38,032 bases of DNA from Anaerolineae bacterium (GTDB lineage: Bacteria; Chloroflexota; Anaerolineae; B4-G1; SLSP01): contig JALOOJ010000015.1 of NCBI GenBank assembly GCA_025454475.1, positions 2,797-40,828 on the forward strand, given 5' to 3'. Shown in pieces: positions 6,913-37,820 of the stretch (positions are counted from its first letter, which is position 1; each line of letters starts with the position of its first letter). The translations under genes were made by a program, and so were the position numbers. The notes beneath the pieces are model-generated. The model was not told the origin of the DNA. It did no database searches and was given only the letters and a program-made list of their open reading frames with translations.

Positions 6913-8061
6913 CTACTCACGTCGTGCCGCATCCACCGCGGCCGCATAGTCTGCCTCGCCCAACACGGCACGCAACATCGCCAAGACGTTTTGAGGGGGC
7001 GTTCCCACCTGAACGGCGTGCGTCGGCGCGGCAACGTAACCGCCTCCGGCGCCGAAGACCTGTACCAACTTCCGGCATTCGGCATAGACCGCCGGTGCGT
7101 CTGCGTTGGGCAACAAAGACTGCACGGGGATGCCCCCGTGGAAGGCAAGCCGATCGCCATACGCCGCCTTCAGGCGTTCGGGCGCCATCCCGGCGGCGTC
7201 CGTCTGCACTGCTTCCAGCACGTCGACGCCGGCGTCCATCAGATCCGGCAGCACGTCAAAGACCGCCCCATCAGTGTGAAACATTGCCGCAGAATGAGGC
7301 GCCAGCGCCTTGCCTAGACCAAACAGCCTGGCGTGATAGGGCTGAATGACGTCTATGTACGCGCGGCGCGACAGCAGCAGGCCTCTTTGGCCCCCAAGAT
7401 CATCGGCGAAGTAGAGGATATCAATGAGATCGCCAGCCGTAGCCAACGCCTGCGTCATTTTCGAAGCAAAGTAGCTCGAGATTCGGTCCAATGCAGACCT
7501 GACCAGGTCGGGGTTCAACAGGACGTTGACCAGCGACTCCTCCAGTCCTGTCATCCAGCAATAGATCTCGAACGGGTTGCCGCAGACGCTGATGGCGAGT
7601 TTCGCCGCGCGGAATGAGGCTCGCCCGTCAGGCCCGCTGATCTCGGCGATCACTTGGTCGCGGAAGCCAGTGAAGTCGTATGCAGACGGATCAGGCCAGG
7701 GGTAATCATCCAGGAACGCCGGATCGGTGACCCCTGCCAGCGGATAGGTCGCAATCTCCTGGTAGGCGCCGATGCCGTAGGACTGCGACCGCCGCCGGAT
7801 GCCCCAGATATCCGTATCCGGCGGGAGCTCCGGACCAGTGTACCTGGGCGCCACGTTGCGGATGTCATCCACCACGTCGCGGAGCCTCTCCCAATCAAGC
7901 CCGCTGGCGGCGAGTGCCTTGGCAAGCACGATCGCCATTTCCTTGGTCGGCCCGAAGTTCCATGAGAATGGCACTCGCCCGCCAGGGCGGGCGCTATCAG
8001 GCGCTTCGTGCCTCAGTGCAGTCAGGACTCGTTCACGGGGTGATATACGACCGTCTGGCAT
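6913..8061 (-). CDS. URO-D/MtaA superfamily protein
   Basis: A 382-residue TIM-barrel protein of the uroporphyrinogen decarboxylase / corrinoid methyltransferase superfamily. It begins with SPRERVLTALRHEAPD, the standard N-terminal helix, and has YFADDLGGQRGLLLS, AMFHTDGAVFDVLPDL, VDVLEAVQ and LAFHGGIPVQSLLP in family order. In the methyltransferase branch (MtaA/CmuA) zinc is held by HxC and a distal Cys; here the first site is HTD and the distal segment (GGYVAAPTHAVQVGTPPQNV) has no Cys, so zinc-thiolate methyl transfer looks unlikely. It also lacks the haem-substrate residues expected of HemE. Cytosolic; reaction unknown. It lies 33 nt after the ManA-like gene and 17 nt before the acetamidase gene. 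No corrinoid-binding protein is encoded in the window. Confidence 0.8.
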   Translation of the reverse strand: MPDGRISPRERVLTALRHEAPDSARPGGRVPFSWNFGPTKEMAIVLAKALAASGLDWERLRDVVDDIRNVAPRYTGPELPPDTDIWGIRRRSQSYGIGAYQEIATYPLAGVTDPAFLDDYPWPDPSAYDFTGFRDQVIAEISGPDGRASFRAAKLAISVCGNPFEIYCWMTGLEESLVNVLLNPDLVRSALDRISSYFASKMTQALATAGDLIDILYFADDLGGQRGLLLSRRAYIDVIQPYHARLFGLGKALAPHSAAMFHTDGAVFDVLPDLMDAGVDVLEAVQTDAAGMAPERLKAAYGDRLAFHGGIPVQSLLPNADAPAVYAECRKLVQVFGAGGGYVAAPTHAVQVGTPPQNVLAMLRAVLGEADYAAAVDAARRE

Positions 8062-12937: not shown

Positions 12938-13714
12938 CTACCCAACCCGACCGGTGACGTAGGCTTCGGTGCGCTCTTCATCGGGGTTGGTGAACAGCTT
13001 GGTGGTCGCCGCGTACTCCACAAGCTCGCCCAGCCAGAAGAACGCTGTCCGGTCTGAAACCCGAGCCGCTTGCTGCATGTTGTGGGTCACGATCACGATC
13101 GTGTACTCGGCCACCAGCTCCTTCATGAGGTCCTCGACGCGCAGCGTGGCGATCGGGTCAAGCGCAGAGCAGGGCTCATCCATGAGGATGATCTCCGGCG
13201 CCACCGCCAGCGTGCGGGCGATGCAGAGCCGCTGCTGCTGTCCCAGCGCCAGGCTGAGCGCCTGGATCGACGTATCGCCTTTGATCTCGTCCCACAGACT
13301 GACGCGGCGCAGGTACGTCTCCACCAGGTCCTCCATATCCGCAGGCGCCACCAAACCGAGTGACCGCGGACCCATCGCCACGTTGTTGAAAACAGACTGC
13401 GGAAACGGGTTGGGCTTCTGAAACACGAGACCGACCCGCTTCCTGAGATCGGCGACATCGACATCCGGCGCATAGATATCGGCGCCATCGATCAGGACCG
13501 TGCCCTCTACCCGCGTTCCGCCGATCTCGTCGTTCATACGATTCAGACAGCGAAGGAACGTGGACTTTCCGCAGCCCGAGGGCCCTATGAAAGCCGTGAT
13601 CTCCCGATCGTGGATCGCAAGATTGATATCGAGCAGCGCCTGTACGCTGTCGTAGAAAAAGTTCAGATGCCTGACGTCGATCTTGGGATTGGGCTCGGTG
13701 ATCGCAACTGTCAT
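12938..13714 (-). CDS. pstB: PstB-like phosphate ABC transporter ATPase with altered signature motif
   Basis: A 258-residue ATPase of the phosphate importer. Walker A GPSGCGKS (44-51), Q-loop VFQKPNPFP (Gln99), Walker B ILMDE (Glu180) and the H-loop (His211) are canonical. The C-loop is not: where PstB has LSGGQ this protein has LALGQ (155-159), so the Ser that contacts the gamma-phosphate is Ala and the next Gly is Leu; the DNA reads CTGGCGCTGGGACAG, with no ambiguity. The flanking SL and QQRLCIAR are normal. The ATG at 13714 has GAAGG 9 nt upstream; a longer in-frame reading to 14008 would run through the promoter and the start of the divergent pstS. It is transcribed away from pstSCA and a second PstB-like ATPase, with which it likely pairs. 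Confidence 0.9.
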
Positions 13715-13752
13715 ACGTATGTGGCCTTCTAGTCTGAGCTTGGCTAGACCGA

Positions 13753-13780
13753 AGTATAAAGCACGCCCACTCGCTGTCAA
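13753..13780 (-). promoter_or_regulatory. Near-consensus promoter of pstB1
   Basis: On the minus strand TTGACA (13775-13780, perfect) and TATACT (13753-13758, five of six) are separated by 16 nt. The start would be near 13746, giving a leader of about 32 nt. This is the strongest sigma70-type promoter I see in the window. Confidence 0.65.
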
Positions 13781-13828
13781 CGGTAGAGGGTGGCTCGCGG
13801 CGACCGCAGACTCCTCCCGTTCACTCGG

Positions 13829-13857
13829 TTTGCAGCCCGGCGGCAAGGGTGTAGAAT
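13829..13857 (+). promoter_or_regulatory. Promoter of pstS, probably leaderless
   Basis: TTTGCA (13829-13834, four of six) and TAGAAT (13852-13857, five of six) are 17 nt apart. Only 8 nt separate the -10 from the GTG of pstS at 13866, so the transcript should begin at or within a base or two of the start codon. No ribosome site is present before this GTG. Confidence 0.55.
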
Positions 13858-13865
13858 CCTGCCTC

Positions 13866-14759
13866 GTGAGAAAACACTCCGTGCTGCGTATTCCGGTCCT
13901 GTTAGCGGCGCTCAGCGTGCTCGTGCTCGCCGGGTGTAGGCCCGGGTCGGATAGTGAGGGCTTGCCGGTAGTGCTGACATCGATCCAGAACAAGGGATCC
14001 GATACCATCGTGAACCTGGCGCTTGCCTGGGCCGAACGCTATCAGACTGTCCGCCCGGAGGTGAGCGTCGCGGTGACGGGCGGCGGCTCTGGTACCGGCA
14101 TCGCCAGCCTGGCGAATGGCACCGTCGACATCGCCAACGCATCGCGGGCCATCAAACCGGAAGAGATTGAGACAGCCCGGACCAATGGCGTCGAGCCTAT
14201 GGAGTTCATCATCGCCCGCGACGCGATCGCGATCATCGTCCATCCCAGCAATCCCGTCGACCATCTCACACTTCAACAGCTCTCGGACATCTACAGCGGA
14301 AAGATCACCAACTGGCGAGACTTAGGGGGTGAGGACCGGCCGATTGTGGCGCTCTCGCGCGAGACCAACTCCGGGACGCATGTATACTTCCTCGAGTCGG
14401 TTATCCGGCTGGGCGATAGCGATGACCAGACGCTCTTCTCGCCGAATGTCCTTCTCCTACCGTCGTCAGAAGGCATCGGTGCAGAGGTGCGCCTGAACCC
14501 GAACGCCATTGGCTACGATGGCCTTGGCTACGTCACGGATGACATGAAGACCCTCTCCATCGGCATCGAATCCAGTGGGCCTTTCTGGGCGCCGAGCGCT
14601 GACACGGTCAACGATGGGCAATACCCTATCTCACGTGACCTGTATATGTACACTGCCGGCGAACCTACGGGGATCATCAAGGACTATATTGACTGGATCA
14701 TGCAGCCTGAGGCGCAGGCCATTGTGCTGGATCTGGGCTTCGTGCCCAACCTGGAGTGA
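13866..14759 (+). CDS. pstS: Phosphate-binding lipoprotein PstS
   Basis: A 297-residue periplasmic-type binding protein that captures phosphate outside the membrane for PstC/PstA. The N-terminus ([17 protein letters not shown]) leads to the lipobox VLAGC, so it is a lipoprotein. The phosphate-binding segments are present: [15 protein letters not shown] near residue 42, [20 protein letters not shown] near residue 75 and [13 protein letters not shown] near residue 165. Start choice: GTG 13866 gives exactly a signal peptide; the frame is open further upstream to 13683 but that part overlaps the promoter and pstB1. Leaderless expression is likely. It heads pstS-pstC-pstA-pstB2. Confidence 0.9.
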
Positions 14760-16603: not shown

Positions 16604-17398
16604 GTGAGTGTCCGTACAGTGACAACGCCTGACGGTGCATCCGACGTCAAGATCCATGTTCAGGACCTGGCGGTTGCCTACTCTGACGGCACGGAGAGCC
16701 TGCAGGGCATCACGATGGACATCTATGCCCATCAGATCAACGTGCTCTTCGGTCCTTCCGGCGGCGGCAAGAGCACGATGCTGCGTACCCTCAACCGGCT
16801 TAACGATCAGGCGGACGTGGCCGCGCAGAGCGGGCAGATCCTTCTGGACGGTGAGAACATTCTCGCACGCGACTATGATGTGACCCAGCTCCGACGGCGC
16901 CTGGGAATCGTCTTCGCCCGACCTGTGCCGCTACCGATGTCGATCTACGAGAACGTCATCTACGGGCTCCGCCTGGCAGGCGTCAAGGACCCGGCAACGC
17001 TCGACGCGGCTGTCGAGCGAGCGCTGAAACAGGCCGTGCTCTGGGATGAGATCGCTGACCGCCTCGGGGACAACGCCTACGCGCTGTCCGGCGGGCAGCA
17101 GCAGCGGCTCTGCCTCGCGCGGTCGCTCGCGCTGCAGCCCGAGGTGATTATGCTCGACGAGCCTACCTCGGGGCTCGATCCCATCTCAACGTTCAAGGTT
17201 GAGCGGACGCTCCAGGACCTGAAGCAGGACTACACGATCCTCATCGTGCCCCATAGCGTCCAGCAGGCGGCGCGCATCGCGGACTGGGCCGCCTTCTTCC
17301 TGCAGGGACAGCTCATCGAGTGGGGCCCTGGCCGCCAGGTCTTCACCGCCCCGAAGAACAAACGCACCGAGGAGTACATCACCGGTCGGTTCGGCTGA
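16604..17398 (+). CDS. pstB: PstB-like ATPase lacking the Q-loop glutamine
   Basis: A 264-residue ATPase. Walker A GPSGGGKS (50-57), signature LSGGQ (161-165), Walker B IMLDE (Glu186) and the H-loop (His217, in IVPHSVQQAAR) are canonical. The Q-loop is altered: the usual VFQKPNPFP reads VFARPVPLP, so the Gln that senses nucleotide and couples to the permease is Ala105. The DNA reads GTCTTCGCCCGACCT. This is the mirror image of the lesion in the divergent PstB-like protein, which keeps the Gln but has a damaged signature. The GTG start has AGGG upstream. It is the last gene of the pst operon; no phoU follows. Confidence 0.9.
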   Translation: MSVRTVTTPDGASDVKIHVQDLAVAYSDGTESLQGITMDIYAHQINVLFGPSGGGKSTMLRTLNRLNDQADVAAQSGQILLDGENILARDYDVTQLRRRLGIVFARPVPLPMSIYENVIYGLRLAGVKDPATLDAAVERALKQAVLWDEIADRLGDNAYALSGGQQQRLCLARSLALQPEVIMLDEPTSGLDPISTFKVERTLQDLKQDYTILIVPHSVQQAARIADWAAFFLQGQLIEWGPGRQVFTAPKNKRTEEYITGRFG

Positions 17399-23747: not shown

Positions 23748-24710
23748 TCACCATTCCCTGGGTGTACTCAGCCGCACAAACTCCTCGCTCATAGCCTCGA
23801 TCGCTTCGGCGCGATGCCCTGCGCCTACCGGATCTCCATACCACTGCGCGATGAACCCACCCTCGGGGCGCCCAAGCGTCTGCACCAACTTTCGGCAATA
23901 GGCGCGTATCTCATCCAAAGTCCCCCGCACCATCGTCTGCTGGATGTCCACAGGACACCAGAACGTGATCCGGCCCCCGAAGCGCTCACCCAGCAGCTCG
24001 ACGCCCATGTTCTCCTGTTGGTCCATCTGGATGACATCGAGGCCTATCTCGATCAGATCGTCCATGATCTGCGTGATGTCGCCGCAACTATGGAGCAGCG
24101 TCAGAAGTCCTGCCGCGTGCGCCGCCCTATACACCCGCTCGTAACGTGGCTTCCAGATCTTGCGCCACGAGGCTGGTGAGATCATGAGCCGATGCTGGAG
24201 TCCCCAGTCGTCGCAGAACATGAACCCGTCCACGTCAGCCGCGGCATAGCGCTCGATGGCGTACAGGTTCATCTCGACCAGGACGTCGATTAGCCGTCCT
24301 AGCTTCTCCGGCGCAAGGTAGATATCCATCCATACGTTTTCGAGACCGCGCACAAAGTGCGTCCGCTCATACAGAGAGATCCCGCTCCCGATCAGAAACT
24401 TATCGCCGGCAACCTCGCGTGCCCCGTCAAGGCTCTCCCAGCGATGAGGCTCGCGGATGTCAGGAATGGTCAGGGCATCCCAGTCGGCCCAGTCCTTGAG
24501 GGGTACATCCTTGACCTCGCCGAGGTTGGACACACCGATGTTGGCCCAGACCGCGCCCCATTCATCAATGCCTTGCCGGGGGCGGGCATCGGGCGAGGGC
24601 GTCATGCCGATCCAGGCGATGTCAGTCCCGTAAGGCTGAGGCAGGCTATAGGGCATCCGATCGGCTCCCTCGAAGCGTATGGTCCGTCGCACGATCTCAC
24701 GTGGTGTCAC
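23748..24710 (-). CDS. URO-D/MtaA superfamily protein
   Basis: A 320-residue TIM-barrel protein of the uroporphyrinogen decarboxylase-like superfamily. Visible hallmarks: TPREIVRRTIRFEGADRMP at the N-terminus, DGFMFCDDWGLQHRLMISP near residue 160, LLTLLHSCGDITQIMDDLI near residue 205, IGLDVIQMDQ and FWCPVDIQ. It keeps HxC of the MtaA zinc site (HSCG) but the C-terminal segment (GGFIAQWYGDPVG) has no third Cys. It is shorter than HemE (about 350). Reaction unknown. The GTG at 24710 follows TAGGAGG. A consensus-like promoter lies about 260 nt upstream, leaving a long leader. Confidence 0.8.
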   Translation of the reverse strand: MTPREIVRRTIRFEGADRMPYSLPQPYGTDIAWIGMTPSPDARPRQGIDEWGAVWANIGVSNLGEVKDVPLKDWADWDALTIPDIREPHRWESLDGAREVAGDKFLIGSGISLYERTHFVRGLENVWMDIYLAPEKLGRLIDVLVEMNLYAIERYAAADVDGFMFCDDWGLQHRLMISPASWRKIWKPRYERVYRAAHAAGLLTLLHSCGDITQIMDDLIEIGLDVIQMDQQENMGVELLGERFGGRITFWCPVDIQQTMVRGTLDEIRAYCRKLVQTLGRPEGGFIAQWYGDPVGAGHRAEAIEAMSEEFVRLSTPREW

Positions 24711-29637: not shown

Positions 29638-31785
29638 TCAGAATCCACCAAACTCCGTCCGCAGGATCAACTCGTCCTGCATCTCGGGAGAGAGCCTCGT
29701 GAAATAGTCCGCATACCCACCGATGCGCACGATAAGATCCCGGTACAGCTCGGGGTGGGAGCGTGCTGCCTTTAGCGTCTCGCCATCGACGACGTTCACC
29801 TGGACCTCGAACCCACCCCGTTGGAGATAGGTGAGGACCAGGGCCTTGAGTCCGGCGTAGCCATCGGGCGAGCCAAAGAGCGCACTGCTGAACTTCAGGT
29901 TGTAGGCCAGGCCGCCGATCATGCGGCTGTGATCCCAGCCGGTAACGGAGAGCACCGCCGCGGTGGGTCCGCAGGACTCCCGACCCTGGGCCGGACCGCA
30001 TCCGTCAGAAAACGGAAAGCCGGCACGTCGTCCGTCAGGTGTCGCCCCGGTCTGCCGCCCGAGCTGCTCGTGCATCACCCAGGCAAAGGCCCCCGGCACA
30101 TACGGACTGTCATCCGGCGCCATGGCGAAGCCGGCGCAGGTATCAGTCAGAAACGCAACTGTTTCCGCGAGCAGCACATCGACAGCATCGTTACCCTGCC
30201 CGTATTTGGGGTAGCCGTTGAGGAACCGCTGGCGCGTCGCCTCCAGTCCTGCGAAGTCGGCGTCAAGGATCGCCTTCAGTTGGGCCAGGGTTAGCCGCCC
30301 CTCCTGGTAGACCTCCTCCCGGATCACATAGAGCGCATCCGCAAGGTTCGCCAGGCCGATGAACGAGCACTCCACCCAGTTGTAGCGCGCCCCCCCTGTC
30401 TCGATGTCCTGCCCGCGGGCGAGGCAGTCGCGCGTGAAAACACTCTGCAGCGGGCGACGCATCCCAGCGGCACGAGCCTGACGTGCCGCGTTCTGCGTGG
30501 CGACACCTTCCGCGACCGCGGCCCCGAGCCTGTGATGGTAGCGCTCGACAAAGGCCTCGAAGGTCGCCGCAGGCCGATCGGCCTGCGCAGCTATCTCCTC
30601 GAGCAGCAGGCCACAGGTGTTGTAGTATGGCGAAGCCACCCACACATTGCTGGCACCTGAAGGCGTGATCTCCACGCACGTTGAGTTGATGTAGCGACAA
30701 GCTTCATCGTCGGGCACGCCCAGCGCGCGCAGCCCGCGCTGGATCGTCGCGTCGCCGAACAAAGCCGGCGTCGGGAAGCCGTGGCCCATCAGGTCAACGG
30801 TTAGATCTACCAGGGCATCAGGGGTCGCTTCGTGCCAGCAGACACCCACGGTTGGGTAGATCATCTTCGTCCGACGCAGGGCCTCAAGGCAGAGGTACGA
30901 GAGCGGGTTGGTGACATCACAGCCTTCGGTATCGCGACCGCCGACCATCACCGACATCGCCAGGCCATCGGGGATGTACGCGTTGATGGCAATGTAGAGA
31001 TGCTCGATCAAGAGCAGAGCGCGCTCGCGCGTTAGGGCACCGCGAGCGATGTCAACTTCGTAGTAGGGCCACAGCGTACGGTCCAGGTGGCCCGGTACCA
31101 CCAGCCAGGCGCGATCGGCGTTCATCACCCCGATGAGCGCGAACCAAAGGAGCTGGATCGCCTCCAGGAAGGAGTCTGGCGGCTTGTGCGCGACTGCGCT
31201 GCACGCGTCTGCCAGTACCTGCAGTTCACGTCGTCGCCCGTCATCGGCGCAGAGCATTGCGGCGTTCACCATAGCAGCAGCGTTCTCGATCATCGTCGAC
31301 AGGCCCTGCAGCGCGAGAAGGAAGCTCTCATACACAGCAGAATCGGTTGCGGGCTGCGCAAAGGTAAGTGCGTCACGCTGCACGCGGGTCTGCGCTGCCA
31401 GCCCATCGAGGCCGAGTCGCATCAGCGGTCCGAGGTCGAGCTCGCAATGACCCGTCTGGCCCGGAAAATCGAGTGTGTAGCTCGCCAGGTATGCCCGCGC
31501 GGTATCGACGTCCGCGGGTTTCGGTTCTGCGGCTTGGAGCCGGCCTACTAGTAGCTCGATTTCGTCGATCTCGAATCGCATCGCGGCAAGACGGTCGCGC
31601 GCCAGGACGCCGCGCCTTACGGTCCATGAGGGCTCGCCCTCCGAAGCACGCAACGAGCGCGCATCAGTGACAGGAGTGTCGCGCAGGCGATGGAGCTGGA
31701 CCGCATCCTTCGTGGACAGGACGCGATCCCGGAGCGTGGCAACACGCGTGTCATCGGAGAGCGGGTGGATGTTCGTCAGCATCAT
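29638..31785 (-). CDS. Glycyl radical enzyme, pyruvate formate-lyase family
   Basis: A 715-residue enzyme of the PFL/GRE superfamily. The active-site Cys is Cys370 in NSTCVEITPSG, with Glu372 after it; this CxE form marks the non-PFL branches (dehydratases, C-N lyases, decarboxylases) in contrast to the CC of true PFL. The radical site is Gly690 in VRIGGYADYF, close to the end as usual, with PEMQDELILRTEF after it. It needs a radical-SAM activase to install the radical; none is encoded in this window. Length is below the usual 750-850. Oxygen sensitivity implies an anaerobic lifestyle or niche. The second of two ATGs (31782) is better spaced from AAGGAG. Substrate unknown; the neighbours suggest a sugar-derived compound. 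Confidence 0.9.
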   Translation of the reverse strand: MMLTNIHPLSDDTRVATLRDRVLSTKDAVQLHRLRDTPVTDARSLRASEGEPSWTVRRGVLARDRLAAMRFEIDEIELLVGRLQAAEPKPADVDTARAYLASYTLDFPGQTGHCELDLGPLMRLGLDGLAAQTRVQRDALTFAQPATDSAVYESFLLALQGLSTMIENAAAMVNAAMLCADDGRRRELQVLADACSAVAHKPPDSFLEAIQLLWFALIGVMNADRAWLVVPGHLDRTLWPYYEVDIARGALTRERALLLIEHLYIAINAYIPDGLAMSVMVGGRDTEGCDVTNPLSYLCLEALRRTKMIYPTVGVCWHEATPDALVDLTVDLMGHGFPTPALFGDATIQRGLRALGVPDDEACRYINSTCVEITPSGASNVWVASPYYNTCGLLLEEIAAQADRPAATFEAFVERYHHRLGAAVAEGVATQNAARQARAAGMRRPLQSVFTRDCLARGQDIETGGARYNWVECSFIGLANLADALYVIREEVYQEGRLTLAQLKAILDADFAGLEATRQRFLNGYPKYGQGNDAVDVLLAETVAFLTDTCAGFAMAPDDSPYVPGAFAWVMHEQLGRQTGATPDGRRAGFPFSDGCGPAQGRESCGPTAAVLSVTGWDHSRMIGGLAYNLKFSSALFGSPDGYAGLKALVLTYLQRGGFEVQVNVVDGETLKAARSHPELYRDLIVRIGGYADYFTRLSPEMQDELILRTEFGGF

Positions 31786-31865: not shown

Positions 31866-33344
31866 CTAGCGCGTGCCCCGCCAGACGTCGGGCAGCGCGC
31901 GCCGCTCGGCGTGCACTTCCTCGAACCAGCGCTCAAGATCCTGCTGCATCGCGCGGAGCCGGTCCGGGAATCGCAGGGCCAGGTTCAGCTTCTCTGACGG
32001 ATCCTCGTCGATGCGGTAGAGCTCGGGGTTCCCCGATGGGGACACGGAGCGGCGGATCGGCGCGCTGTCGATCGTGGTCTCGAAGTGCGGCACACCGACC
32101 ATACCTCGGCGCCATACTTCGTCGATGGGTAGCTGGGCCATGGCCGCCGGAATGGCAGGCCAATACAGCTTCCAGGGCCCATCGCGCATCGCGGCGTTGC
32201 AGTTCGGGACCGGCTCATAGCGGTTGGCCTGCCAGAACCGCTTCTCAATCACGCTGTCGGAGTTGCCCTGCAGCACAGGGAGCACGTTGATGCCATCCAG
32301 AGCATTCGGCGGCCGCGTGGTTACGCCCGCCGCTGCAGTAAGTGTAGGCAGCCAGTCACAGAAGTGGGTCATCGCATCCACCGTTGTGGCCGCGTTCAGA
32401 CGACCATCCATCCGGTTCTGACCGGCTCTGCCGGCCGCGCTCGGACGCACCGTGCCAAGGCCTGCAGGCCACCGCACGATGGTCGGCACTCGGATACCTC
32501 CCTCGAGCACATCGCCTCGCATCCCACGGAGTCCACCATTGTCGCGATCAAGCCTCATCGTCCGGCCATCGCCCAGACGCTCGTTGCCCAGCCATGGGCC
32601 GTTCGCACTGGTGAAGAGCACGAGCGTGTCTTCGTACAGACCATGGTACGCCAATGCCTCCAGGATGCGGCCGACGCCGCTGTCGAGCCGGTGTATCATC
32701 GCGTAGAGACGGCAGAGCGCCTCGTTGAACCGAGCCATCTCACGCCAGGCGCGCACCTCGGCCTCGGGCGCCTGTAACGGGCGGCTCGGAGCGTTGTAGG
32801 CGACGTAGAGGAAGAACGGCTCCTGGTGGTGCCGATCCACGAAGTCCACCGCACCCTCGGTCAGCACGTCGGTCAGGTAGCGCCCATCCGCGTAGATGGG
32901 TTTGCCATTCGCCTCAATCACCCAGTCGAAGTAGTCACTTCCGCCGTTCAGGAAGCCCAGGAACTCATCGAATCCCCGTCGATTGGGATGGTAACGCAGG
33001 TCAAACAACCCGTTGTGCCACTTTCCGACCATACCCGTGGCGTAACCTGCCGCCCTGAATAGATCGGCGAGCGTGGCTTCGCTGAGCGAGAATCGATCCA
33101 GCCCGCGATTCGACTCTCCACTCAGCGCACCGGTCCGCTGGCTGTAGCGTCCGGTGAGGAGACCCGCACGTGCCGCCGCCGATCCGGGCGACGCGGTATA
33201 GTGCTGTGACAGCACCAACCCGTCGGCGGCAAGTTGATCGAGCACGGGCGTCGACGCGTAGCGGTTTCCGCCATAGCCCACATCGCCCCATCCCAAGCCA
33301 TCGGCAACGACAAGGACGACGTTGGTGTATCCTACTGCTGCCAA
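31866..33344 (-). CDS. Sulfatase-fold protein with disrupted active site
   Basis: A 492-residue, full-length alkaline-phosphatase-superfamily protein of the arylsulfatase type. Compared with the ten catalytic positions of arylsulfatase A, several are lost: the metal pair DD reads Asp15-Gly16; the formylglycine motif CxPxR reads SAAAR (55-59), a Ser without the essential Pro; the usual APHxP His is Ser187; the metal DN is Ala247-Asn248 in FTSANGP; and the conserved Lys of the GGKG segment is Arg276. Arg59, Lys108 and His110 (GKWH) remain. The frame is open and the fold motifs (GLLTGRY, GFDEFLG, EGGIRVPTIVRWPAG) are intact, so it looks like a pseudo-enzyme under selection rather than decay. Start is TTG, with GGGAGG 9 nt before. 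No signal peptide. No formylglycine-generating enzyme in the window. Confidence 0.88.
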   Translation of the reverse strand: MAAVGYTNVVLVVADGLGWGDVGYGGNRYASTPVLDQLAADGLVLSQHYTASPGSAAARAGLLTGRYSQRTGALSGESNRGLDRFSLSEATLADLFRAAGYATGMVGKWHNGLFDLRYHPNRRGFDEFLGFLNGGSDYFDWVIEANGKPIYADGRYLTDVLTEGAVDFVDRHHQEPFFLYVAYNAPSRPLQAPEAEVRAWREMARFNEALCRLYAMIHRLDSGVGRILEALAYHGLYEDTLVLFTSANGPWLGNERLGDGRTMRLDRDNGGLRGMRGDVLEGGIRVPTIVRWPAGLGTVRPSAAGRAGQNRMDGRLNAATTVDAMTHFCDWLPTLTAAAGVTTRPPNALDGINVLPVLQGNSDSVIEKRFWQANRYEPVPNCNAAMRDGPWKLYWPAIPAAMAQLPIDEVWRRGMVGVPHFETTIDSAPIRRSVSPSGNPELYRIDEDPSEKLNLALRFPDRLRAMQQDLERWFEEVHAERRALPDVWRGTR

Positions 33345-33375
33345 AGGTTAACGCCTCCCAGCATACGCACTCCCG

Positions 33376-34467
33376 TCACACGGCACGTCCCTGAACGATC
33401 AGTTCCTCCGCTCGCAACGCCTCAGCCGCGCGGATCATCGCCATATAACCCTCCACGGGGACGTAGTCCGGGATTGAGTTCCCCGATCCCAGAGCGTAGC
33501 CCCGCGCCTGCGAGCGGAATCGGCGCCCCATCTCAACAGCACGCTCGAAGACGGCCTGGGGGTCGTCGCGGCAGAGAATGTCGACGTCAATACCGCCAAC
33601 CAGGCCAATGCGATCACCGAAGCGCTCGATCCACGCCCCAAAGGGAGCGATCACGTCCTCATTCGAGTGCTTGGCGTCGATGCCAGCGTCAATCATATCG
33701 TCCATGATGGCAAAGATGTTGCCACAGGAGTGCCAGAGGAATGGGCGACCTGCTCGGTGCACCAGATCGATCACACGCCGGTACTGGGGCACCATATGCT
33801 GGCGGATCACGTGGGGCGCCACCAACGTACTCACCTTGTAGCCCTGATCGTCGCCCACGCGGCAGACCGCGAAGAGATCAGCGTAACGATCTAGGAACTC
33901 ACTCCAGATCGTGACCATCAAGTCGCCTATGCGCCGGTAAAGGTCCGCGTAGAGCTCCGGGTCATCGTGGGACATATAAGCCAGATGCTCGTAGCCCACG
34001 AGGTCTTCGCTGATCTCAAAGATACCGTTGCCCACACCCCCGAGCGCCTTCATCCCCGGTGGCATCGTTGCTGCGAGCGCCCTGAAGCGCCGGTCCGCCA
34101 CCGCCCAGAACCTCTGGGGCAGCTCGTCCCACGGGTAACGGTCGAAGTCGGCGCGGGTCTGGACCGGGCCAGGGTGCTCCCCCAACAACGCTCCGCCGCC
34201 GGGCAGGATCTCGGTAATGCACACCTCGAATGAGACAGTGTCATAGGTCATCGCGTGGTAGAAACCACAGTAGTACTCGAAGTAGCGCGCCAGGTCGGCG
34301 TCGTCGCCGCCCGCCAGCGCCTCGAACTGCGTCCCCGTGGCCTTCTCCATGAAGGCTACGTTAACCAGATGCTCGTAGACCGGCAGCCTGTCGGGCCGCC
34401 GGTTGTAGGCGACATCCACCATGCGTCGGTAGTCCGGCGCAGGCACCGTGTTAGGTAGATTTACCAT
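33376..34467 (-). CDS. URO-D/MtaA superfamily protein
   Basis: A 363-residue TIM-barrel protein of the uroporphyrinogen-decarboxylase-like superfamily. Family marks: RPDRLPVYEHLVN near the start, VGDDQGYKVSTLVAPH near residue 208, FLWHSCGNIFAIMDDMID near residue 245, LVGGIDVDIL near residue 293, and GYALGSGNSIPDYVPVEGYM near the C-terminus. The HxC pair of the MtaA zinc site is present (HSCG), and the third ligand position, Cys in PGCG of MtaA, is Ser in LGSG. A corrinoid methyltransferase role is therefore doubtful. The ATG lacks a strong ribosome site and lies 12 nt after the small basic gene, which suggests coupled translation. Confidence 0.82.
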   Translation of the reverse strand: MVNLPNTVPAPDYRRMVDVAYNRRPDRLPVYEHLVNVAFMEKATGTQFEALAGGDDADLARYFEYYCGFYHAMTYDTVSFEVCITEILPGGGALLGEHPGPVQTRADFDRYPWDELPQRFWAVADRRFRALAATMPPGMKALGGVGNGIFEISEDLVGYEHLAYMSHDDPELYADLYRRIGDLMVTIWSEFLDRYADLFAVCRVGDDQGYKVSTLVAPHVIRQHMVPQYRRVIDLVHRAGRPFLWHSCGNIFAIMDDMIDAGIDAKHSNEDVIAPFGAWIERFGDRIGLVGGIDVDILCRDDPQAVFERAVEMGRRFRSQARGYALGSGNSIPDYVPVEGYMAMIRAAEALRAEELIVQGRAV

Positions 34468-34634: not shown

Positions 34635-36593
34635 CTACCCTCTTTCCTGTGCAATCTCCACCATCTGGTGCCCCTCGACCTTGGGCACAGTGAACACAAC
34701 GCGATCATCCTGTTGATCGAAGGACAGGACCTCGCCCTGCGGAACCAACGTCACGCGCGCGACTGGCGCATCAGCTTTCACCGACACGTTGACGCCATAC
34801 AGCGGCACCACATCCTCGACTACGTCGAATGCCTCACCGCGCCGCTCGGGCACGTAATGCAGGAGGTGAAGCACCTGGCGACCGTGCTCCTTCTGGACGT
34901 TGAGGGTCGCGATCGCGGTCTGATACTGGCTGAAGATGGGATGGCTGAAGTAGATGACCCGGCCGTTTTGCACCACGCCGGGCTGTGAGATCCGACCCGA
35001 TGATGGTGCCTGACGATGTGAACAGAAATGCCGGTACGTGCGGTCGAAGTAGGGCGCGACGACGTCAGCGAGTACTTCGGTTCCGGGCACTGCAGCGATC
35101 GCCATGCCGCGCATCGTCATTGCGTGCTCCGTTAAGGGCAGCCCCTTGCCCAGGCCTTCGCGCGGTCGTAGATACTCCGCATAGTTGTGAGCGGTATACT
35201 CCCGACCCCGGGCCAACACACCTGAGGCATCCCGAGGACCCTCCCCGGTCAGTGTGACGCCCAGCGCATCCCACCCGAACACCGTCTGTGCTGCATCCAT
35301 CCCCGAGGCGAACGAGGCGATCACGGCACCCCCGGCGTCAACGTAAGCCTGCAGCTTCGAAGCGAGTGTGCCTTCTACGGGGATCTTGTCCGGCAGTACA
35401 AGCACTCGATAGCGACTGAAGTCACTCAGGGAGTCGACCATGTCGAACTGCTGCTTGCCCTCCTGCAGCATTCGCACGGCACCCATCATCGGGCGAAAGT
35501 CGACCCCCACGCGATTGAGAGCGGGATCGAACTCTTCCGGCGTCAGCACGCCAATATCGACAAGCTGTTCAGCGCCGGCGCACCAGGGCTCCTTGGCCTC
35601 GACCTGTTCGTAGACTCCACCGATCAGATCGTAGGTCGCCGGCTCGAGCACGCCGCGCGGGTGGAGCTGATCTCCCACGCAGACCTTGGCGTTCAGCGCC
35701 AGCATATGGTAGCACTCGAAGGCGAGCGCCGCCTCGTTCTTGTACGAATGGAAGTCGCCCCACGACGTATGGAACTTGCCCGTCATTCCCAGATAGTCCA
35801 GACCCAGGTTGCGCACGTAGCGCGCCGCAATCGGGAAGTGGAGGTACCCCCATCCACCGCTGGGCAGTGATTCGAGCTCCAGATGGGTGAACGCGTCGAG
35901 AATGGGACGGTGGTGGGGACCTGCGTGCCCTGCATTGTAGAAGATGAGCGCCTCGGGCTTCGTCGCGCGCACGTGCGCGGACATGTCGTGAACGAAGGTG
36001 TTCAGGACCTGCCGAGCATACGCCATCCGGTCCTCGACCTTCGAGGGCTCCATCCCCTGCGCGATCATCCCCTGGCGGCAGTAGTGACAGGAGCAGTCAC
36101 GAGCGTCGACGATGTCGAACCAGAAGCCGTCCACCGGCACACTCGCCATCACATCGCTGACCACGTCCTTGAGCCACGTGACATAGGGCGTGTTGAGGCA
36201 GAGCAGGTGACGGAACCCGTCCTCATACGGGCCCGGGCCAAAGAGATGCCCGTCGGAATTTAGCACGCGCCATTCCGGGTGCTCCTCCATTTTCTGTTGA
36301 TTGCGCTGCACCGAGACGTAGATCGGCGCGGCGATGCCATGCGCATGGCACGCCTCGATCTGGCCTCTCAGCAGATTCGTCTCAAGGAATGGATGGCGGT
36401 ACGCGGCAAAAGCTTCCGTGTCGTAGTAGAGCCAGCCGTGATGGCAGAGCGCGAAGACGTTGATGGAGTTGACGTGCGCCTGCGCGAGCGTCTGGGCAAA
36501 TTGCTCTGGATCGAAGTCGGCGCCGATCCCGTCGATCGCCTCGCTCGTGTGGAAGTCAAGGTGGATCTGCCGAAACGGTAAGGATGTCGCCAT
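34635..36593 (-). CDS. GHL6-type glycoside hydrolase-like protein
   Basis: A 652-residue protein. The N-terminal 350 residues form a TIM barrel of the hypothetical glycosyl hydrolase 6 (GHL6) type: RQIHLDFHTSEAI at the start, VNSINVFALCHHGWLYYDT, PIYVSVQRNQ, VDGFWFDIVDARDCSCHYC near residue 155 (Asp in FWFDI is a catalytic candidate) and IFYNAGHAG. A middle domain of residues about 370-500 (YRVLVLPDKIPV, YVDAGGAVIASFASG) fits the beta-galactosidase trimerisation fold, followed by beta-strands. CSCHYCRQG suggests a bound metal. No signal peptide, so it acts in the cytosol on imported oligosaccharides. The ATG follows AAGGAG. It is 75 nt downstream of the alpha-galactosidase gene. Confidence 0.75.
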   Translation of the reverse strand: MATSLPFRQIHLDFHTSEAIDGIGADFDPEQFAQTLAQAHVNSINVFALCHHGWLYYDTEAFAAYRHPFLETNLLRGQIEACHAHGIAAPIYVSVQRNQQKMEEHPEWRVLNSDGHLFGPGPYEDGFRHLLCLNTPYVTWLKDVVSDVMASVPVDGFWFDIVDARDCSCHYCRQGMIAQGMEPSKVEDRMAYARQVLNTFVHDMSAHVRATKPEALIFYNAGHAGPHHRPILDAFTHLELESLPSGGWGYLHFPIAARYVRNLGLDYLGMTGKFHTSWGDFHSYKNEAALAFECYHMLALNAKVCVGDQLHPRGVLEPATYDLIGGVYEQVEAKEPWCAGAEQLVDIGVLTPEEFDPALNRVGVDFRPMMGAVRMLQEGKQQFDMVDSLSDFSRYRVLVLPDKIPVEGTLASKLQAYVDAGGAVIASFASGMDAAQTVFGWDALGVTLTGEGPRDASGVLARGREYTAHNYAEYLRPREGLGKGLPLTEHAMTMRGMAIAAVPGTEVLADVVAPYFDRTYRHFCSHRQAPSSGRISQPGVVQNGRVIYFSHPIFSQYQTAIATLNVQKEHGRQVLHLLHYVPERRGEAFDVVEDVVPLYGVNVSVKADAPVARVTLVPQGEVLSFDQQDDRVVFTVPKVEGHQMVEIAQERG

Positions 36594-36668: not shown

Positions 36669-37820
36669 TCACTGCTGGTTCATGGGCATGATCCGCAGGG
36701 CCACCACGTCGTGCCTATTGACGCGGGCAACGAAACTGCTGGTGAAGACGCCCAGGTCTTCGTGAGCCCAGAGGTCACGGACGAGACAGGGGCGCCGGTC
36801 GTGCAGGCCCAGCGTCTCCCAGGCCACAGCGATACGCCGGCCGTCACGCTCGCCAAGGTTGAACAGGCCCACGGCAATCGAGCCGTCCTGGAGCGGTTTG
36901 GCCCAGGTGACGGCAATGTCCGACGCCCAGGGCACGCGCCCCACCTGGTAGCCCTGGACGCCCAGCGGGTCCTGGTTCACGGCGATGAGCTCGCGGTTGA
37001 GCAGGATGTCCTTCGCCGCGGGGTTCATGCTGCGCACATCGCAGCCGATCATCAGCGGCGAGGCCATCAGGCACCACAGCGAGAAGTGGCTGCGGTACTC
37101 CGCGTCGGTGCAGCCGCCGTGGGCGACATTGCCCTTCCCGTACATCCCCACCACGAGCATGTCAGGGTCATTCCAGTGCCCGGGGCCGGCGTAGGCCTCC
37201 AGCCCGACCTGCTGCTCGAAGCCGATCTTGACGATTGACTCCCAGGAGTCGTTGATATCGCCGGTGGACCGCCACATATGCCCGCCGGTCCGCACACCCC
37301 ACTCCCACGGTTTGTGACTACCCCACTCGCAGAGGCTGAAGAGAATGGGCCGCCCGGTCGCGCGCAGCGCCTGGCCCATGCGCTGGTAGAGCATCGGGCC
37401 ATCAACGCCCGCCGGGGCATAGCAGAAGTCATACTTAAGGAAGTCGACGCCCCAGTCAGCGAACGTCTGGGCATCGACCTCCTCGTAGCCGTAGCTGGCG
37501 GGCTTGCCCGCGCAGGTGTGACTGCCCGCGCAGGAGTAGATCCCGAACTTCAGTCCCTTGCTATGAACGTAATCAGCCAGCGCCGGGATGCCGCTGGGGA
37601 AGATCGCGGGATCCCAGGTCAGCCGCCCACCGACCCGCTCATCGGCCTCCCAGAGGTCATCGATGACGACATAGTCGTACCCGGCGTCCTTGAGGCCCTC
37701 GCTAATGAAGGCGTCCGCCGTCTCGCGGATCACCGCCTCGTTGATGGCGCCGCCGAACGTGTTCCAGCTATTCCACCCCATCGGGGGAGTCAGGGCAAGC
37801 GGTCGAACCGGGTCGTCCAT
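36669..37820 (-). CDS. GH27 alpha-galactosidase
   Basis: A 383-residue enzyme that removes terminal alpha-galactose from oligosaccharides such as melibiose or raffinose. GH27 marks are complete: LTPPMGWNSWNTFGG near residue 10, YVVIDDLWE, KFGIYSCAGSHTCAG, nucleophile Asp131 in FLKYDFC, acid/base Asp188 in WRSTGDI, and WNDPDMLVVG. The C-terminal 90 residues form the usual beta-sandwich. It has no signal peptide and should act on imported sugars. The ATG at 37820 follows AAAGGAG. It is the first gene of the right-hand minus-strand run and has a putative promoter and operator upstream. A GH27 beta-L-arabinopyranosidase is a less likely alternative. Confidence 0.93.
   Translation of the reverse strand: MDDPVRPLALTPPMGWNSWNTFGGAINEAVIRETADAFISEGLKDAGYDYVVIDDLWEADERVGGRLTWDPAIFPSGIPALADYVHSKGLKFGIYSCAGSHTCAGKPASYGYEEVDAQTFADWGVDFLKYDFCYAPAGVDGPMLYQRMGQALRATGRPILFSLCEWGSHKPWEWGVRTGGHMWRSTGDINDSWESIVKIGFEQQVGLEAYAGPGHWNDPDMLVVGMYGKGNVAHGGCTDAEYRSHFSLWCLMASPLMIGCDVRSMNPAAKDILLNRELIAVNQDPLGVQGYQVGRVPWASDIAVTWAKPLQDGSIAVGLFNLGERDGRRIAVAWETLGLHDRRPCLVRDLWAHEDLGVFTSSFVARVNRHDVVALRIMPMNQQ

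Follow-up and report, generated by a model that had tools for sequence, protein, structure and literature searches.

The sulfatase-like gene and its locus

The window analysed here is a stretch of 38,032 nt from an Anaerolineae bacterium (assembly GCA_025454475.1, contig JALOOJ010000015.1, positions 2,797 to 40,828 of the forward strand). An open reading frame of this window, beginning with a TTG codon and preceded by a ribosome-binding-like stretch, encodes a protein with the sulfatase fold, which we call pseudo-sulfatase. Its gene lies between those of a URO-D-family protein and of a glycyl radical enzyme, all three on the same strand in the order URO-D, pseudo-sulfatase and glycyl radical enzyme (Table 1), and the URO-D and pseudo-sulfatase genes are likely contained in one transcript. 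Sigma-70-like promoters and terminators in this operon were no more than expected by chance.

Table 1. Features of the pseudo-sulfatase locus (positions are those of the window; residues are counted from the TTG start)
Feature	Position	Strand	Basis
Glycyl radical enzyme (PFL-like), 715 aa, downstream neighbour, 80-nt gap	29638..31785	-	Domain and structure matches
Pseudo-sulfatase gene, 492 aa, PF00884 fold	31866..33344	-	Open frame of 492 codons, TTG start
R276 in place of the GxKG Lys	32517..32519	-	Lys in 119/119 homologues
A247-N248 (canonical DN; metal Asp to Ala)	32601..32606	-	Asp in 119/119, Asn in 119/119 homologues
S187 in place of the APH catalytic His	32784..32786	-	His in 119/119 homologues
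K108-W-H110 of GKWH, active-site Lys and His kept	33015..33023	-	40 close homologues
Formylglycine core, now S55-A-A-A-R59 (C55S and P57A; R59 unchanged)	33168..33182	-	Homologue comparison
D15-G16 (canonical DD; second metal Asp to Gly, codon GGC)	33297..33302	-	D16 in 117/117 homologues covering the site
GGGAGG, ribosome-binding-like stretch, 9 nt upstream of the TTG start	33354..33359	-	Read from the sequence
URO-D-family protein (PF01208), upstream neighbour, 31-nt gap	33376..34467	-	Pfam match

The pseudo-sulfatase matched the Pfam Sulfatase family with 176.7 bits (cut-off 25) over residues 8-341, and the codon GC profile of its frame (0.68/0.49/0.77) was the same as that of the neighbouring genes. 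No signal peptide was visible in the protein or at the starts of its homologues. Its AlphaFold2 model, built with 66 sequences, reached a pLDDT of 86.2 and a pTM of 0.90, and the low-confidence stretches, around residues 296-308 and 408-436, were outside the catalytic motifs. The best solved match was the S1_19 carrageenan sulfatase 9hh2 (Z 45.3, rmsd 2.1, 403 aligned); S1_19 was the best by sequence and by fold, with other chains, such as human 4-sulfatase 1FSU, within 1 Z unit. Both the Pfam match and the model bear out the initial annotation of a full-length sulfatase-fold protein with an intact scaffold.

Among the family S1 sulfatases, the nearest solved ones are thus those of S1_19, namely PfS1_19A (6BIA/6B0J), PfS1_19B (6PSM) and ZgCgsA (9HH2). 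The likeness extends to the whole fold, with 34% identity over about 400 residues, and the spacing of the formylglycine core, the GKWH motif, the Asn of DN and the EGGIRVP motif are common to both. Unlike these enzymes, the pseudo-sulfatase has a Ser at the nucleophile position, the four replacements D16G, H187S, D247A and K276R, and no visible signal peptide.

The glycyl radical enzyme found its best structural matches in the diol and glycerol dehydratase type, scored below every NCBIfam cut-off for named members, and has three strong activase genes elsewhere in the host genome. Three different URO-D-family proteins are encoded within 28 kb (6913-8061, 23748-24710 and the neighbour of the pseudo-sulfatase), and the two of them that were scanned against NCBIfam fell far below the methylcobamide methyltransferase cut-offs. 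Further along, the gene of a hypothetical glycoside hydrolase with a GHL6 / GH42M domain (34635-36593, minus strand) adjoins an alpha-galactosidase-like gene (36669-37820), which suggests a sugar-use locus. Elsewhere in the window, two PstB-like phosphate ABC ATPases (12938-14008, minus strand, and 16604-17398, plus strand) stand on either side of a pst-like transporter set; LSGGQQQR, the canonical signature, is present in the second, whereas the first has other residues there.

Active-site residues

The active-site motifs of the pseudo-sulfatase read D15-G16, S55-A-A-A-R59, GK108WH110, NAPS187, SA247N248G and GMR276G. The changes from the canonical residues are D16G, C55S/P57A, H187S, D247A and K276R, with D15, R59, K108, H110 and N248 kept, so that every one of the five altered motifs reported at first (DG, SAAAR, APS, AN and GMRG) was found in place. 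A sequencing or assembly error was rejected because the changes are multi-nucleotide ones that hit separate codons in an otherwise intact frame.

S1 sulfatases require the formylglycine, four metal ligands, a His and a Lys (PMC9096561, PMC5066984), and the catalytic His of APH is 99% conserved in SulfAtlas (PMC5066984). At the metal-ligand positions, where Asp, Asp, Asp and Asn are expected, the pseudo-sulfatase has D15, G16, A247 and N248, so two of the four ligands, both Asp, are lost; the catalytic His is Ser187, the GxKG Lys is Arg276, and the Cys is also replaced. In choline sulfatase, the H201A and K309L mutations lowered kcat/KM by a factor of up to a million or more, and C54S lowered it by about 4,000 (PMC5870055). 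By analogy with these mutants, normal sulfate-ester hydrolysis by the pseudo-sulfatase would be very unlikely, the Arg at the Lys position being a milder change than the Leu tested in choline sulfatase.

Homologues of the pseudo-sulfatase

A search of about 1,000 genomes (relatives, class, phylum and order) gave 40 close homologues, 39-50% identical by tblastn, and a profile scan of GTDB contigs gave 80, of which 79 were read, making a joint set of 119. Where covered, all 40 close homologues were canonical in DD, CxPxR, GKWH, APH, DN and the GxK Lys; two of them are 5'-truncated and do not reach the first two motifs. H187, D247 and K276 were found throughout the joint set, and D16 in all those covering the site. 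In the 79 GTDB relatives Asp16 was partly selected for, since DD formed part of one of the two patterns used in the scan; the 40 close homologues were found without that pattern. The His, Asp, Asn and Lys were kept in all 79 GTDB relatives.

The canonical members (L010-L049, L097 and L152) form a cytosolic subfamily, 39-50% identical to the pseudo-sulfatase over the full length and also with no visible signal peptide; they share with it a C-terminal substrate-side motif, but differ in having DD, CxPxR, APH, DN and the GxK Lys in all of them, as well as other gene neighbourhoods. The subfamily is small and has so far been seen for the most part in genomes belonging to the same phylum as the window, probably Chloroflexota, to judge by one named homologue, L152 from Chloroflexi, which fell among same-phylum sequences in the tree. 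The pseudo-sulfatase itself was placed as sister to the 40 close homologues (support 93/91), a placement that may be affected by its end branch, which at 1.12 is the longest in the subfamily.

No second degenerate copy was found, and plain-protein scans of genome contigs and of viral contigs gave no relative. Neither an ortholog in the four congeneric genomes searched nor a canonical paralogue of this subfamily in the host genome was detected, the next best host protein being about 35% identical. On the sequences compared, the pseudo-sulfatase is a lone derivative within a canonical subfamily. The expected clade of homologues sharing SAAAR and SANGP beside glycyl radical enzymes did not materialise, because all the close homologues are canonical and the copy is isolated; homologue residues, gene neighbourhoods and the tree all rejected it.

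Near-invariant here means the 137 columns with a conservation of 95% or more across 40 full-length close homologues. The pseudo-sulfatase is changed in 20 of them, of which 5 are among the 10 catalytic columns and 15 among the remaining 127 (Fisher p 0.006). The largest number of near-invariant columns altered in any homologue was 10, none of them catalytic, and no catalytic column was lost in those tabulated, namely the 12 with the most changes and the 40 close ones. Other near-invariant positions of the pseudo-sulfatase that changed, possibly in the pocket, are V54G, E78S, G133N, W373A, R395W and Y417G.

Formylglycine core and the possibility of an altered chemistry

The published formylglycine consensus is C/S-X-P/A-S/X-R (PMC10154612), and the SAAAR of the pseudo-sulfatase fits its core, C/S-X-P/A-X-R. 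Therefore C55S and P57A alone do not amount to a lost formylglycine motif; the initial annotation was right in that both changes are real, but SAAAR is a permitted Ser-type core, and a destroyed motif was rejected. The longer SulfAtlas pattern (PMC5066984) fails only at Gly54, the residue before the nucleophile. Among 117 homologues, position 55 was Cys in 116 and Ser in 1, and position 57 was Pro in 110, Ala in 6 and Ser in 1. In the host genome, a true anaerobic sulfatase-maturating enzyme (anSME) is encoded at 15608-16714 of contig 213; its TIGR03942 score is 462 bits, with the cut-off at 349. The genome also has seven FGE-domain matches, and two further sulfatases in it carry C-x-A-x-R (CIASR and CSASR). 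On contig 127 of the same genome, two sulfatase-fold proteins carry Thr where the formylglycine Cys is expected (TIPER and TVPNR). Since SAAAR fits the core and a true anSME is present, maturation of Ser55 to formylglycine may be possible.

The pseudo-sulfatase could on these grounds be a working enzyme of altered chemistry, in which anSME would make formylglycine of Ser55 and a remodelled pocket, with another metal or none, would act on a different ester or put the aldehyde to another use. The fit of SAAAR to the consensus, the anSME, the two C-x-A-x-R sulfatases, and the retention of R59, K108, H110 and N248 are consistent with such an enzyme. However, the lost Asp pair, His and Lys are invariant in the homologues and have given way to Gly, Ser, Ala and Arg, and Gly54 lies outside the SulfAtlas pattern. 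With the exception of E41D, which is conservative, no Asp, Glu, His or Cys was gained at the 20 near-invariant positions that changed, and no new metal site was seen among these columns. We consider this reading unlikely.

Selection versus decay

A gene in decay, whose activity was lost and whose frame is still unbroken under relaxed selection, would agree with the isolation of the copy, with its absence from the congeneric genomes, with its long end branch and with the number of changed near-invariant positions, twenty against at most ten in any homologue. Nevertheless, the way in which the changes are distributed argues against it. Of the five lost catalytic codons, four (those of C55S, H187S, D247A and K276R) each differ from every homologue codon at two or more nucleotides, and nine or more changes are needed for the five replacements together. 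If a canonical ancestor had decayed neutrally, the five catalytic replacements, the lack of a stop codon and the retention of at least 112 of the 127 other residues would have had a combined probability that peaked at 3e-6 over all times; this value takes no account of the case having been picked for its losses.

A codon model of six taxa, with the catalytic codons removed, gave an omega on the pseudo-sulfatase branch 0.98 times that of the rest, and omega = 1 was worse by 54 lnL units; the estimate is loose because synonymous sites are saturated on this branch, so multipliers of about 0.3 to 5 were barely distinguishable. A neutral phase at the end of the branch was also disfavoured beyond a length of about 0.02-0.03 substitutions per nucleotide (2dlnL 1.5 at 0.010 and 5.9 at 0.033), and within such a short phase the probability of all five changes was about 1e-6 to 1e-5. 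Within the limits of saturation and of the single degenerate sequence known, the gene appears to have stayed under purifying selection after the catalytic loss, and a mild relaxation is possible.

The dN/dS check proposed at the outset, together with the Fisher test, thus agrees with the early argument that random decay would not keep such a frame. Of the contrary case that had been foreseen, an isolated decaying outlier among canonical homologues, the canonical homologues and the isolation proved true, but the conserved columns and the codon model do not fit neutral decay, and we regard decay as decidedly unlikely.

Gene neighbourhood of the homologues

The adjacency of the URO-D, pseudo-sulfatase and glycyl radical enzyme genes is real but is not conserved. 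A relative of the glycyl radical enzyme was found in none of 13 neighbourhoods of canonical homologues, some of them cut by contig ends, and five neighbourhoods of its own relatives (45-60% identical) contained no relative of the pseudo-sulfatase, so the proposed link to this enzyme could not be upheld as a conserved one. A relative of the URO-D protein, 36% identical, occurred in one of the 13, in a genome of the same order (G041), beside a molybdopterin oxidoreductase.

These results bear on the notion that the protein binds no ligand itself and is a subunit, structural or regulatory, which pairs with the URO-D-like protein, the glycyl radical enzyme or an active sulfatase. In such a subunit the catalytic residues would be free to change, and the tight order of the three genes (gaps of 31 and 80 nt) is in keeping with it. 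But the gene order is not conserved, the genome has no canonical paralogue of the subfamily, and most of the strongly conserved C-terminal segment RFWQ..NRY.P..CNAAMRDG.WKL has been preserved, which makes the subunit quite improbable. Still more remote, and in our judgement highly improbable, is that an anSME-matured Ser55 with neither metal site nor general acid would act as a naked aldehyde in a chemistry other than hydrolysis, for instance by holding an amine or thiol ligand in a reversible covalent bond, which if true would make the pseudo-sulfatase a formylglycine protein that is no ester hydrolase.

Proposed role of the pseudo-sulfatase

The reading that we prefer, with moderate confidence, is that of a cytosolic pseudo-sulfatase that has lost its hydrolase activity and is retained to bind a ligand, sulfated or otherwise anionic. 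A member of a formylglycine-sulfatase subfamily would have lost sulfate-ester hydrolysis in one lineage and then been kept under purifying selection. Turnover would be impossible because the metal and the general acid are missing, and the loss of two Asp and of the catalytic His should make the pocket, where R59, K108, H110, R276 and N248 are left, more basic and poor in metal. From a positively charged pocket lacking two acids we infer that a sulfated or anionic small molecule would be bound uncut, and the protein may serve as a ligand sensor, a carrier, or a partner for the products of the neighbouring genes. The ligand proposed is presumptive, as is any tie to the adjacent URO-D and glycyl radical enzyme genes, and the changes at the other near-invariant, possibly pocket positions could mean that the old ligand is no longer bound. 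The non-hydrolytic role suggested at first is thus the best reading, given the intact scaffold, the lost catalytic residues and the rejection of random decay, with the binding itself remaining conjectural. The observation of the altered catalytic positions is confirmed, its earlier interpretation is partly supported, and the protein is best read as a single-lineage pseudo-sulfatase.

Such holding of an uncut ligand would resemble that of the Cys-to-Ser sulfatase mutants which trap substrate in crystals. Crystals of PfS1_19A C78S held the bound substrate (PMC9096561), and this mutant and ARSA C69S have, as the pseudo-sulfatase does, a Ser nucleophile and the sulfate-binding Arg, Lys and His; however, they keep the metal site, the His and the Lys, whereas the pseudo-sulfatase does not, and it is a natural protein. 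Pseudoenzymes such as heparanase-2 (PMC12406646) have likewise lost catalysis while the fold and part of the pocket are kept under selection. No precedent of a bacterial S1 pseudo-sulfatase was found in the literature searched, which omits most subscription journals.

Sulfatases are well conserved and are often counted in environmental genomes, and these counts are used to infer the use of sulfated polysaccharides. A sulfatase that is kept but catalytically stripped means that PF00884 matches can be non-hydrolytic. The coexistence of a Ser-x-Ala-x-Arg core and a true anSME in one genome offers a direct test of the reach of anSME substrate recognition, and the pseudo-sulfatase would be a natural test of the sulfatase pocket as a binder.
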